Shown piece after piece: positions 8,178 through 12,894 of a DNA stretch of 64,000 nt. The stretch spans positions 1 through 64,000 of the forward strand of contig JAJFLC010000015.1 in assembly GCA_021772895.1 (NCBI GenBank). Reading direction: 5' to 3'. A program made the translations under genes and the position numbers. The stretch comes from Mariprofundaceae bacterium (GTDB taxonomy: Bacteria > Pseudomonadota > Zetaproteobacteria > Mariprofundales > Mariprofundaceae). Below the pieces are notes generated by a model. It did not search any database, had not been told where the DNA came from, and was given only the letters and a program-made list of their open reading frames with translations. Position 1 is the first letter of the stretch. Every line of letters begins with the position of its first letter.

Positions 8178-8639
8178 ATGCGCGGTTTTACATTGGTTGA
8201 AATGATGATAACGATTGCCATAGGAGCAATCCTGTTGGCTATTTCAGCGGGGGCTTATTCAAGCATTCGCAATGACTCTCTGGTTACTTCTGCAAGCGAA
8301 AAAACAACTACAGCACTTTATCAGGCACGACTTAGGGCGTTATCACAACGAAACAGCCAAAGTGTTACCATTGATTATTCCAACGAAGGCATGACGGATA
8401 GCCTTGGAAACAGTCATCTTTACGATTCTGTTAATCTACAAAACCTGCCTTCAGGCACATGCATACCCGGCGTTAGCGCTTCAGAAGCCATTACATTCAA
8501 ATCCAGAGGTGCTGCAACAGCTGCTATTATTAAAGTCTCATCATCTGCCTCTTCCAAAACAAATTATATTGTTGTCAACGGTATCACTGGAGGCGTACAC
8601 CTTTATAAAAGCTGTACAGGGTTAGGGATTCTTTCGTGA
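8178..8639 (+). CDS. minor pseudopilin, FimT/GspH type
   Basis: 153 residues starting at MRGFTLVEMM, a very short class III leader with prepilin peptidase cleavage between Gly3 and Phe4 and the conserved Glu at mature position 5. The N-terminal hydrophobic helix spans about 4-26; the rest resembles the GspH/FimT beta domain with two Cys (in TCIPG and KSCTG) likely to form a disulphide. The ATG at 8178 is preferred over one at 8157 because of its ribosome site and the leader form. It is the first gene of a five-gene operon (GTGA overlap with the next) that builds the tip or initiating complex of a type IV pilus. Confidence 0.88.
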   Translation: MRGFTLVEMMITIAIGAILLAISAGAYSSIRNDSLVTSASEKTTTALYQARLRALSQRNSQSVTIDYSNEGMTDSLGNSHLYDSVNLQNLPSGTCIPGVSASEAITFKSRGAATAAIIKVSSSASSKTNYIVVNGITGGVHLYKSCTGLGILS

Positions 8640-9031
8640 TAAGATCTGAAAAAGGGTTTACTCTCATCGAATCTTTGGTCGCACTTGTGGTGATTTCTAT
8701 AAGCATGCTGGCTTTAGCTTCGCTGTTAATTGGAAATATGAAAAGTACCACACAAAGTGAACGAAAAATTGATTATTCAGGATTAGCACAATCCGCGATG
8801 AATAATATGGTTGCGCTTGTGAAAGCCAATGGCACTGGTTATACGCAAGCCAGCGCTCAGACAGCACTGACGTCACAGATGGCAAATGTTACAGATTTAT
8901 ATAGTGCTATTGTGACATTAAACCCTACACCGACGGTACAGGGAACAACTGCCATAAACGTACAGTTCAGCTGGATGATAAGAGGTGATACCAAAACGCT
9001 TACACTACGATCTGCGGTGGTGACAGAGTGA
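8636..9031 (+). CDS. minor pilin, PilV type
   Basis: 131 residues beginning with a GTG that overlaps the previous stop (GTGA). Prepilin motif KGFTLIESL, with cleavage after Gly7 and Glu at mature position 5, then a hydrophobic helix to about residue 32. It resembles PilV/MshD-type proteins (the N-terminal block GFTLIESLVALVVISI is usual for them). It is likely part of the minor pilin priming complex with its neighbours. The C-terminal domain is short, with no distinctive motif. Confidence 0.86.
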   Translation: MIRSEKGFTLIESLVALVVISISMLALASLLIGNMKSTTQSERKIDYSGLAQSAMNNMVALVKANGTGYTQASAQTALTSQMANVTDLYSAIVTLNPTPTVQGTTAINVQFSWMIRGDTKTLTLRSAVVTE

Positions 9032-9756
9032 TTTATAAGAATAAACATACTCATTCTGAATCAGGGTTCACTCTGATCGAAATGATGATTGTGATGGTTA
9101 TCGCGCTGGTGATTTTAGGTGGTTTGCTGTTAAATTTTACGCAACAATATAGTGAATACAACTACCAAAGCAAACGCATCAATACAGTGCAAAATCTTGA
9201 ATTTTCAATGCGTTTTATGGCTGAAGATCTTCGCTCAGGACTCATTAGTCTTAGCACTACACCCACCGGGAACCCGACTGAAAACAACGCATTTGTGGGT
9301 GTAAATGCAACAACAGCGTTTACCTTCTGGGTTTGGGATGAAGATAACGGGGTCACAAACAACCGGGCACAACGAAAATATCTGCTATCTGGAACCGCTT
9401 TACGTTATGACAATGAGGCATCAGCAACCGATGATACTGGCAGCGCAAGCCGTGATATTCTGACGGATATTACTTTTTTTAAGATATTTCTTGATGGGAC
9501 AACCACAAGAGAAGTGTCTGCGGGTGTTCCATTTACCGGGATTCCAGATGCATTGGGCACATTGGTGGTGAATGATCCTTCCGGAACTCAACAGACAGTT
9601 AATGGCTACACAATCCTCATTGAGATGGCAGTGGATAGTGGGTACAAGCAAGGCTCCTTTTTAGATGTAAAGGGTGTTGATGTGCGTACAACAGCAGATA
9701 AACGAAAAAGGGTTTGGCGTTATACCCAGGTCTATCCAATGTCGGTGGTGAACTAA
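9028..9756 (+). CDS. minor pilin, PilW type
   Basis: 242 residues from a GTG overlapping the previous stop. Leader MIYKNKHTHSESG, then FTLIEMMIVMVIALVILGG with Glu at mature position 5. The length and the SGFTLIEMM...Q..Y..YNYQSKR pattern fit the PilW family, which in Pseudomonas and Xanthomonas cooperates with FimU, PilV, PilX and PilY1 to start pilus assembly. The next gene starts 2 bases after the stop. Confidence 0.88.
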   Translation: MIYKNKHTHSESGFTLIEMMIVMVIALVILGGLLLNFTQQYSEYNYQSKRINTVQNLEFSMRFMAEDLRSGLISLSTTPTGNPTENNAFVGVNATTAFTFWVWDEDNGVTNNRAQRKYLLSGTALRYDNEASATDDTGSASRDILTDITFFKIFLDGTTTREVSAGVPFTGIPDALGTLVVNDPSGTQQTVNGYTILIEMAVDSGYKQGSFLDVKGVDVRTTADKRKRVWRYTQVYPMSVVN

Positions 9757-9757
9757 T

Positions 9758-12412
9758 ATGAATGACAAAGAGATGAATTTAGAAAACAGTCATGAAAGTG
9801 GTTTTATTCTCATCACCGCAATTATGATTGTGGCTATTTTAACCATTGTGGGTACGACAGCGTGGTTCAAAACCAATATTCAAATGAAAGTATCTGTAAC
9901 CGTCTTAGAGTCGGAGCAGGCCTTTGCAGCAGGCAATGCAGGATTGGAAACAACCTATGCCTATTGGTCGTACGATCCTTATGGTCAGAGTGAATACACG
10001 GATGTTCAAAATGATATTATAAATGATACAACGGTTTCAGGCATTTATATTGATTTGCTTGACCCATATTCCATGGAAGACCTGCTTGCCATTGCCACAT
10101 CAACCTATTCAAAGACAGATGTGGATGACCTGATCGCCACAACAACAGGTATTCGTGTTTACAATGTTACCAGTTCGGGAATGACTGCGGTGGCGAATTC
10201 CGCCTGGGGAACATTTGACCCGCAAGTGGCTGTGTGGGCAACCAGTTTCAGCTCACAAAATGAGCCCAATTATCCTTACGGTGTGAACAATGCCAATGTT
10301 AATACAGGCAGTTGCGCAGACTGTAATCTTGTGGTCTATGCACTGGGTCGCTCCGGTAATGCCAGTCACCTCCTGCGGCAGACCTTCTCTTCAGTCAGTT
10401 TTAATATTACCGGCGTTTCAGCCATCACCAATGCGCCGGCCTACGACTCATTTTCAGAGATGTATAACGCCGTCTGTCCATACTCGACGCCCATAAGCGA
10501 TACAGCGAACACACCAGGTGCAAAAGGCGCAACCAATGGACTGGTTGTTGTTGATATTACACAATCGACCGATGGTAACGCTTTAAAATCCAATGCCAGT
10601 GTTGGACGCGCAGGAAAAGCATTTCGGAGTGGCGTCAACTCCAATCCGGCATTGACGATTGATAGTAATCCGGAGATTGTTTTTGACCCGACGGTAGAGA
10701 GCAGTACCGCCTCGCCGCAGGTCGACCATAATCAGCAATCACCCACTTCATCCAATTCTCCGTTTATTGAAGAGAACCAAACGCTCAACTGGTTCACATC
10801 GGCCAATAACCATCTCTTCAATCTCGATATCTATCGTGAAGCAGCCAACACCATCCGCACTGGCACCAAGGGCTGGACAACGGCAACGGAGAAGGGGATA
10901 GACTGGACGCTGGCAACAGACCGCGACGGCCCCTATAACCTTGCAACGGGTAACAGCGGCATACCGCGCTCCGGCACACTGACGGTGCGTGAATTCATGT
11001 ACAATGTTCAACGGGCCATTCCAATGTATGGCCTTGTCCGTGTTCTTGTCCCGACATTGATCGATTCCGGCGGCGATTTTGGTGCAGGTCTCGCATGCGA
11101 CACGGGAACAGACACATTTACCATCTACTCACAGAATCCGCAGGTTAGCCGTTATGGCGTTCTCTCTGCAGCGAACGTTTTGGCCCAGACAGGCGATGGC
11201 GGTTCTGAAGCTGTGGACATCAAAGATATGGATATATCAGCCTCGCCAGCCAGCACCACCAATGTTCAGGCCAAAGTGATTGTCTATGGCATGCTTTTTA
11301 TCGACTATTATCACGATTCCGATGACAACGGCCTCTATGATGCGGTCAATGACAAGCTCTTTACCCCGGTTGAATCGGTTGATATCTATATGAAAATTCA
11401 TATACCGCTGATCATTAACCCTGCACTGGATGGCACTGACTCAGGTCTTGCCGATGATTCTGCAACAGCCGGTAAGGATTACAGCCATGTTAGTGCCGCC
11501 AAAGGTAAGTGGTATGGTATGGATCTTGATAACTCTCCTGATGGTGAGATGGATCTGATGAGCATGCCCTATACTGACTCATCCGACCCTTCCATCTTTG
11601 AAGTGGCAGTCAGTAGTCGGGGTTTTGGTTCGGCGGGTTCAAGCACCTATTTCACATCCAAAGCGTCCGGGCGAAATGTGGCGGCCGGTTTTGTCAACAT
11701 GCTCTATGGTACAAACAGGGGGCATGCTGGCGGCGCAACGCTGGCCAAACGATTGGCCTACTACCTGAACACCAAAAAGGCGGCCTCCACCGCGCAGATC
11801 GCCGATTTCCCATCCAATTCGCTGGCCAGTTTTCAGGCATTTTATATTGGCAATAACGGTACAGGTACGACACCGGATGCGGCAGATGTCTATCACCTGA
11901 TCTCACCCAGTGGTTATGTGCATGGCTGGCGAAGGGCTTTTCAGGTCACAACCATGCCAGCAAATGTCTGGAATGATAATTTAATCGCTACCACTTCATC
12001 TTATTATGCCGAGCGAAGTCAGTATATGCACGTCAGCAGTGATGCCGATGGTGTCATGATCGATAGCGATTTTGCCGACCTGCCAGCCGAGATCTATTCA
12101 GGAGGACTGCTGGATATGCACGGTAATGTAAATGTATCGGGTGTGGTCTACACACCGATGCAGATTGAACTGGAAGCCAAAGATAACGGCAACTACAAAG
12201 GCACGGCTGATGAAGGACCTGCCCGGCAATATGTGAATGGCTCTCTGATCGGCGGCTTCGGCGTTTATGTACAGAATAAAAAAAATGGCAGCGTGAACGG
12301 TACCGATGACGGCCTGACCGTGATTGTCTATGACCCGACAGCGGTCGACAAGTTAAGCACCAATGCGCCCGAATCGGTTCTGGCCCGGCGCTACTGGCAG
12401 GCACTGCCATGA
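9758..12412 (+). CDS. giant PilX-like minor pilin with large C-terminal extracellular region
   Basis: 884 residues. The first about 65 residues match PilX-type N-termini: ESGFILITAIMIVAILTIVG prepilin helix and EQAFAAGNAGLE. PilX proteins are usually about 150-200 residues, so some 700 residues are extra. In the extension I see a CADC pair (in NTGSCADCNLVV, near residue 190) and two acidic calcium-loop-like motifs, DSDDNGLYD at 520-528 and DLDNSPDGEMD near 589. These recall PilY1 calcium sites, but no PilY1 propeller signature is recognised. The classical pilY1 gene is missing from the operon, so this protein may take its place. The next gene overlaps its stop. Confidence 0.75.
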   Translation: MNDKEMNLENSHESGFILITAIMIVAILTIVGTTAWFKTNIQMKVSVTVLESEQAFAAGNAGLETTYAYWSYDPYGQSEYTDVQNDIINDTTVSGIYIDLLDPYSMEDLLAIATSTYSKTDVDDLIATTTGIRVYNVTSSGMTAVANSAWGTFDPQVAVWATSFSSQNEPNYPYGVNNANVNTGSCADCNLVVYALGRSGNASHLLRQTFSSVSFNITGVSAITNAPAYDSFSEMYNAVCPYSTPISDTANTPGAKGATNGLVVVDITQSTDGNALKSNASVGRAGKAFRSGVNSNPALTIDSNPEIVFDPTVESSTASPQVDHNQQSPTSSNSPFIEENQTLNWFTSANNHLFNLDIYREAANTIRTGTKGWTTATEKGIDWTLATDRDGPYNLATGNSGIPRSGTLTVREFMYNVQRAIPMYGLVRVLVPTLIDSGGDFGAGLACDTGTDTFTIYSQNPQVSRYGVLSAANVLAQTGDGGSEAVDIKDMDISASPASTTNVQAKVIVYGMLFIDYYHDSDDNGLYDAVNDKLFTPVESVDIYMKIHIPLIINPALDGTDSGLADDSATAGKDYSHVSAAKGKWYGMDLDNSPDGEMDLMSMPYTDSSDPSIFEVAVSSRGFGSAGSSTYFTSKASGRNVAAGFVNMLYGTNRGHAGGATLAKRLAYYLNTKKAASTAQIADFPSNSLASFQAFYIGNNGTGTTPDAADVYHLISPSGYVHGWRRAFQVTTMPANVWNDNLIATTSSYYAERSQYMHVSSDADGVMIDSDFADLPAEIYSGGLLDMHGNVNVSGVVYTPMQIELEAKDNGNYKGTADEGPARQYVNGSLIGGFGVYVQNKKNGSVNGTDDGLTVIVYDPTAVDKLSTNAPESVLARRYWQALP

Positions 12413-12894
12413 TCATGCGTTATACAATACCGCTTATTTTCTTTATGGCGTTCACATCACCGTTGCCTGTATCAGGTGACCATATTCATCATTGGCGTGA
12501 TAGTAGTGGCGTGCTTCATTTCACCGATAACCCTTGTCATGTGCCCGCCCAGTATAGGCAGGGCAGCTCTATGGAGATTGAAGACTTTGATTCTGATGAT
12601 CAGGTGGCAAAGATTGAAGATGACGATGATGAAGAGTTTCATGGTCTGGAGCTGTGGAGTTATGTCTGCGCATCATGTCATCACACAGGGTTTGGTTTCA
12701 AAGGTGATAAAGTGGGACTGGGCAGAATCCTTGTTGACCGTACAACACGGTTTCCAAAAACAGTTGAGCAGATTGTATCAAAATTGAAACACGCTACATC
12801 AGGGCGTTTAAGCGACATGCCAAAAATTGATGTCAGTGATGAAGGTCTTCTAGGCCTTGCTGAATATTTACTGGATAAGGATACAGAGGAGTAA
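12409..12894 (+). CDS. exported DUF4124 / monohaem c-type cytochrome fusion
   Basis: 161 residues. A signal peptide (1-22) is followed by a DUF4124-like segment (HHWRDSSGVLHFTDNPC, 27-43), a very acidic linker (55-77), and a small cytochrome c domain with haem motif CASCH at 87-91 and Met137 (LSDMPKI) as likely axial ligand. DUF4124 is a short exported domain often found with envelope proteins. It should be exported and receive haem in the periplasm. It is translationally coupled to the giant PilX-like gene (ATGA), so it is the last gene of the pilin operon. A cytochrome in a minor pilin operon is unusual; electron transfer at the pilus base is an inference. Confidence 0.85.
   Translation: MIMRYTIPLIFFMAFTSPLPVSGDHIHHWRDSSGVLHFTDNPCHVPAQYRQGSSMEIEDFDSDDQVAKIEDDDDEEFHGLELWSYVCASCHHTGFGFKGDKVGLGRILVDRTTRFPKTVEQIVSKLKHATSGRLSDMPKIDVSDEGLLGLAEYLLDKDTEE

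Follow-up and report, generated by a model that had tools for sequence, protein, structure and literature searches.

Why should an operon of type IVa minor-pilin genes end in a gene for a c-type cytochrome? The question is raised by positions 8178 to 12894 of a 64,000-nucleotide stretch of DNA (the window), which forms the start of contig C7 in the assembly of a Mariprofundaceae bacterium (GCA_021772895.1; 2.45 Mb, 98.5% complete). Here, four minor-pilin genes are followed by one for an exported protein in which a DUF4124 domain is joined to a cytochrome c. Within the Zetaproteobacteria this protein tracks an oversized PilX that seemingly replaces the tip protein PilY1, and it is more likely to be a helper for building the pilus tip than an electron wire along the pilus.

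Conserved pairing of the cytochrome with a large PilX

The operon is composed of the following genes; C11 is another contig of the same assembly.

8178 to 8639, forward strand: fimT/gspH-like minor prepilin (MR/GFTLVE), by open reading frame and Pfam; C11 homologue 48% identical
8636 to 9031, forward strand: pilV-like minor prepilin (GFTLIE); TIGR02523 PilV at E 2e-10, under its cut-off; C11 homologue 40% identical
9028 to 9756, forward strand: pilW-like minor prepilin (GFTLIE), by open reading frame and Pfam; C11 homologue 47% identical
9758 to 12412, forward strand: large PilX of 884 aa, a PilX_N prepilin part (PF14341, E 1e-7) with a long C-terminal module
12409 to 12894, forward strand: DUF4124-cytochrome c of 161 aa with a Sec signal peptide, by open reading frame, Pfam and family alignment

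The tandem of four minor-pilin genes and an exported DUF4124-cytochrome had been described in an earlier note made from the sequence alone; all five genes lie on the forward strand with Pfam support, and the five-gene operon is confirmed as genuine. The Pfam N_methyl domain was detected in FimT, PilV and PilW (E 1e-8 to 3e-7), and the prepilin N-terminal motifs of these three proteins, followed by a PilX_N protein, reproduce the type IVa minor-pilin order. Adjoining genes overlap by GTGA at fimT/pilV and pilV/pilW and by ATGA at pilX/cytochrome, while pilW and pilX are separated by one base (T at 9757) and not by two as previously given. The fimT reading frame could open from 8157, but a ribosome-binding site (GGAAGG just 5′) favours 8178. 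Left unmentioned in the earlier note was the size of PilX, which usually measures ~170-400 aa; large homologues of about 840-1044 aa are found in other Zetaproteobacteria.

The distribution of both proteins was assessed in 78 Zetaproteobacteria genomes (Mariprofundaceae, Ghiorsea and Zetaproteobacteria metagenome-assembled genomes, MAGs). Large PilX occurs in 15 and the DUF4124-cytochrome in 16; both are present in 13 genomes, large PilX only in two, the cytochrome only in three and neither in 60 (Fisher p 2e-10, uncorrected for kinship). The cytochrome gene adjoins 12 of 17 large-pilX genes but none of the 59 remaining PilX loci (Fisher p 2e-10, a value exaggerated by kinship among the genomes), which rules out a chance neighbourhood of the two. 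Of these controls, 39 belong to Pseudomonadota of other classes and 20 are short-PilX loci within the class, part of the latter stopping at contig ends. A locus was scored as positive if any small secreted protein with a CxxCH lay no more than 3 kb from PilX, a filter that recovered all positives tested. A search of 399 genomes of the phylum at E 1e-7 found no DUF4124-cytochrome outside the class.

The usual place of the cytochrome gene is in the order fimT-pilV-pilW-pilX-(cytochrome)-pilMNOPQ. It lies directly 3′ of pilX on the same strand in both copies of the source genome (G000) and in G015, G022, G014, G019, G037 and G064; in G037 the contig ends L057 and L017 hold the same PilX C-terminus, so that PilX and cytochrome form one locus. 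At co-directional loci the two genes overlap by 4-19 bases or are separated by a 2-base gap. The cytochrome gene is convergent beside pilX in G069, G072, G073 and G075 and lies away from pilX in G005, G010, G061, G062 and G065. Large PilX without an adjoining cytochrome was seen at G000-C6, G009, G010, G061 and G076. The earlier note named a lack of conservation with the pilins in relatives as grounds for refutation; in relatives the link held, which supports the cytochrome as belonging with the minor pilins. Synthesis in a fixed ratio, proposed at the same time, does not fit the convergent gene in four Ghiorsea-group genomes or its placement elsewhere in five genomes.

Two arrangements deserve separate mention. 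In the four Ghiorsea-group genomes (L045:3816-4334, L046:8269-8787, L047:11517-12035, L048:139-660) the inverted cytochrome gene still abuts pilX, giving adjacency without co-transcription. In another genus (L014:6108-8256, L051:7499-9729, L052, L053) the same DUF4124-cytochrome is the first gene of a compact cluster, remote from pilins, that also encodes an uncharacterised protein of 273 aa and a HAD-like hydrolase.

Make-up of the large PilX and of the cytochrome

Two features of the large PilX bear on its function.

10781 to 12388, forward strand: C-terminal module, roughly aa 342-877 of PilX; 387 columns aligned by hhalign at E 1.9e-43
11315 to 11341, forward strand: EF-hand-like acidic loop DSDDNGLYD (PilX 520-528), fitting Dx[DN]x[DN]GxxD as in calcium-binding PilY1

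Profile comparison with hhalign revealed that the C-terminal half of PilX has a homologue in Sideroxydans and two gammaproteobacteria, where it is a secreted protein of its own encoded at the place of PilY1. The gene for this protein is located directly after an ordinary-sized pilX in Sideroxydans (L071:9161-11824), after a pilX-sized gene in a gammaproteobacterium (L072:4901-6697) and among pilins in an Ectothiorhodospiraceae MAG (L070:316-1995); no convincing Pfam domain was found in the three proteins (L070-L072). When genome contigs were scanned, a single protein as query matched nothing, whereas the PilX profile did. Because its C-terminus is homologous to a separate protein in the usual pilY1 place, we infer that the large PilX is a PilX joined to a putative alternative tip module. 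The position of the acidic loop is kept in 12 of 12 aligned large PilX proteins and the strict pattern D.[DN].[DN]...D in eight, the exceptions being E or Q at the last place (2/12) and a loop insert (2/12).

PilY1 (PF05567) was detected in 55 of 200 phylum genomes and is missing from all class members listed, in agreement with the earlier description of the operon as lacking pilY1. Neither the window PilX nor the source genome yielded PF05567 in a search that succeeds elsewhere in the phylum; with no such domain, a fused PilY1 was ruled out at sequence level. No solved structure related to the large PilX was found. The separate module protein of Sideroxydans and gammaproteobacteria is itself a possible PilY1 alternative. 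In G010, the large pilX is spread over two reading frames (L049:6329-9419), either by frameshift or by true fission.

The cytochrome carries three features of note.

12481 to 12546, forward strand: DUF4124 core (HHWRDSSGVLHFTDNPCHVPAQ region); PF13511 scores 17.9 bits here and reaches E 6e-11 among relatives
12667 to 12681, forward strand: haem-binding motif CASCH (aa 87-91); CxxCH invariant in 17 of 17 family members
12817 to 12819, forward strand: Met137 (SDMPK), predicted distal haem ligand; Met 40-46 residues past the CxxCH His in 17 of 17, with an uncertain alignment around the Met in G019

The protein has a cleavable Sec signal peptide and one CxxCH, rather than the several haem motifs per chain of multihaem extracellular cytochromes; it has no lipobox and no outer-membrane or pilin anchor. 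In the window protein both domains score under the gathering threshold (Cytochrome_CBB3 E 4e-4, DUF4124 E 4e-3). A family scan at E<0.01 recovered DUF4124 in 13 of 13 members and Cytochrome_CBB3 in 12 of 13. The best relatives by sequence in the PDB are cytochromes c6 and c552. The fold model is of moderate quality (pLDDT 67), and its best PDB fold matches are to cytochrome c6 (E 0.04), a weak agreement. With a CxxCH near the domain N-terminus, a predicted Met ligand and the c fold, the protein shows the marks of a class I cytochrome c. The cytochrome tree is mostly unresolved. At L021:4940-5509, a DUF4124-like N-terminus is instead joined to an apparent retropepsin-type aspartyl protease domain (VDTGAT motif).

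The source genome holds three pilin sets, two of which include the cytochrome. The set on contig C11 has its own cytochrome, lies directly 5′ of pilM-N-O-P-Q-aroK-aroB and is divergent from a penicillin-binding protein gene; the third, on contig C6, is without one. The window operon thus represents an additional, diverged version of the type IVa minor-pilin operon of Zetaproteobacteria, the second in this genome. A recent duplication of the C11 operon was ruled out, as the two PilX proteins are only ~33-36% identical with long, well-supported branches between them.

Where class members have a short PilX, the slot from pilX to pilM is filled by different secreted proteins, Cys-rich and of low complexity; the cytochrome occupies this slot only where PilX is large. 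Many slot proteins carry a CHxPPGN...HGDxxGxC motif (L093:8700-9461, L095:4552-5094, L095:5149-5964, L097:9002-9724, L098:9074-9841, L100:5407-5919), and those scanned against Pfam gave no convincing match. The motif can be written more fully as CHxPPGN...AHLxHGDxxGxC, and the proteins share a short C-terminal end (RExxG, then K, Q or E).

In the window, the operon is flanked upstream by genes for a CBS protein and tsaE and downstream by queG and thiamine genes, the last assigned by reading the sequence. Promoter and terminator scans returned site numbers not above those in shuffled sequence.

Candidate roles for the cytochrome

Two known proteins guide the interpretation. TfcP (Mxan_0363) of Myxococcus xanthus is a periplasmic cytochrome c encoded in one of three minor-pilin/PilY1 clusters (cluster_1); it promotes calcium binding by PilY1.1 and so stabilises that protein, does not occur in purified pili and was judged no electron carrier (PMC8833165). 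TfpC (NGO0783) of Neisseria gonorrhoeae matches DUF4124, and type IV pili are not maintained on the cell surface without it (PMC7593972). Because both halves of the window protein resemble domains that each serve type IV pilus formation, and because the protein tracks a tip-like PilX, we favour a role in the periplasm in which it assists assembly of the large-PilX tip, and assign this reading an even chance. That one of the three pilin sets lacks the cytochrome, as in M. xanthus, also counts for this role. FimT, PilV, PilW and PilX would together prime a type IVa pilus and make up its tip complex, with the place of PilY1 taken by the large C-terminal module of PilX, so that PilX and tip protein form one chain. 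The cytochrome would be exported, receive one haem c and remain in the periplasm, where it may act transiently on the large PilX in tip-module folding, metal uptake or stability until PilX is built into the pilus. The metal ion would probably be calcium, bound at the acidic loop. The periplasmic location, the contact with PilX and the chaperone-like action are inferred by analogy, from TfcP for the cytochrome half and from TfpC for the DUF4124 half.

Several observations weigh against an assembly factor. Five large-PilX loci possess the acidic loop region without a neighbouring cytochrome, two of the genomes being without any, and three genomes have the cytochrome without a large PilX. DUF4124 is found in many unrelated proteins, the helical architecture of TfpC is unmatched by the window protein, and the structure model of PilX (pLDDT 47) is too poor for placing the loop in a structure. 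Furthermore, Met stands at the ligand position in all 17 family members, unlike the His/Cys of TfcP; since it is kept throughout, the haem is probably redox-competent.

This conserved Met, which more than anything else speaks against a pure TfcP analogue, is why we retain a second reading, which we consider possible though doubtful: that the cytochrome senses periplasmic redox or exchanges electrons with the pilin complex, so that pili or their tips are made according to electron supply. The invariant CxxCH (also 17/17), the canonical c6/c552-like domain and the life of the class as redox-gradient iron oxidisers (PMC5566968) are consistent with such a gate, whereas the single haem, the variable orientation and location of the gene, the want of an adjoining partner redox protein and the nearest precedent, TfcP, argue otherwise. 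A more specific form, in which the haem reports periplasmic redox to the fused PilX module, a given tip is assembled only when electron supply suits it and the iron oxidiser thereby chooses among three tips, is distinctly unlikely. Least probable of all is extracellular electron transfer, in which a cytochrome on the pilus or its tip connects the cell electrically with Fe(II) or minerals. The genetic link to a tip operon and the lifestyle of the class speak for it, but the protein is monohaem, soluble and Sec-exported with neither anchor nor pilin part, and most class members, Mariprofundus-type genomes among them, have no cytochrome at the pilMNOPQ locus. Additionally, conductive pili were considered unlikely, and none were seen, in a survey covering 73 genomes of iron oxidisers (PMC5566968), and TfcP is not part of the pili (PMC8833165). 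Of the earlier proposal of redox sensing or electron transfer at the pilus, the extracellular part is not supported, given the single haem, the missing anchor, TfcP and the survey, while the apparently canonical haem ligands leave room for a periplasmic redox role. It is also unlikely, if somewhat conceivable, that the pilX-pilM space varies in content, accommodating secreted proteins of no common function, and that a general periplasmic carrier lies there by accident. The slot proteins of short-PilX relatives and the five genomes with the cytochrome elsewhere would fit an accidental passenger; however, the window cytochrome follows a large PilX outside the pilM locus, the gene overlaps are kept, and the cytochrome's preference for large-PilX loci is that described above.

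Comparison with known systems

Experimentally, a cytochrome c is established as a pilus assembly factor in one case, TfcP, whose homologues are reported only in Myxococcales (PMC8833165). The Zetaproteobacteria operon offers a second, structurally different pairing in a distant class, in which DUF4124, a known pilus-factor domain, is joined to a canonical cytochrome; in the literature, we found no paper linking minor pilins, a cytochrome and DUF4124. If the assembly role is true, cytochromes have been recruited more than once for building pilus tips; if the redox role is true, electron supply can switch pilus tips. The findings also point to a PilY1-free tip architecture common to the class, Sideroxydans and some gammaproteobacteria.

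TfcP and TfpC are the closest precedents, and membership in either family is not claimed because the defining features of each were tested and are lacking. Like TfcP, the window protein is a small, presumably periplasmic monohaem c-type cytochrome; it has a signal peptide and only one CxxCH, its gene belongs to a minor-pilin operon whose genes overlap or are closely spaced, and it is present in only some of three pilin sets per genome. Of the minor-pilin/PilY1 cluster that encodes TfcP, the window operon has the minor pilins but not PilY1; the client of TfcP is this calcium-binding tip protein, whereas the operon described here combines a large PilX with the absence of PilY1. In TfcP the distal ligand is Cys, a charged extension follows the cytochrome domain at the C-terminus, and DUF4124 is missing. 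The window family has Met in place of that Cys with no conserved downstream Cys, and the window protein ends with the last cytochrome helix and begins with an N-terminal DUF4124. With TfpC it shares DUF4124 in an exported protein (all 13 members scanned, the window protein falling under the gathering score). TfpC, however, has a membrane helix, a proline-rich stretch, a charged C-terminal coiled coil and no haem, in place of the cytochrome c fold found here, and its gene lies outside any minor-pilin operon with PilX.

Extracellular cytochrome nanowires of the OmcS and OmcZ type are multihaem proteins that polymerise themselves; the monohaem, soluble window cytochrome resembles them only in c-type haem and filament context. 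The PilX/PilY1 tip complex of type IVa pili in Pseudomonas, Neisseria and Myxococcus has the same FimT/U-PilV-PilW-PilX order and a tip protein bearing an EF-hand-like loop, except that the putative tip module of the window operon forms part of the PilX chain and does not belong to PF05567.

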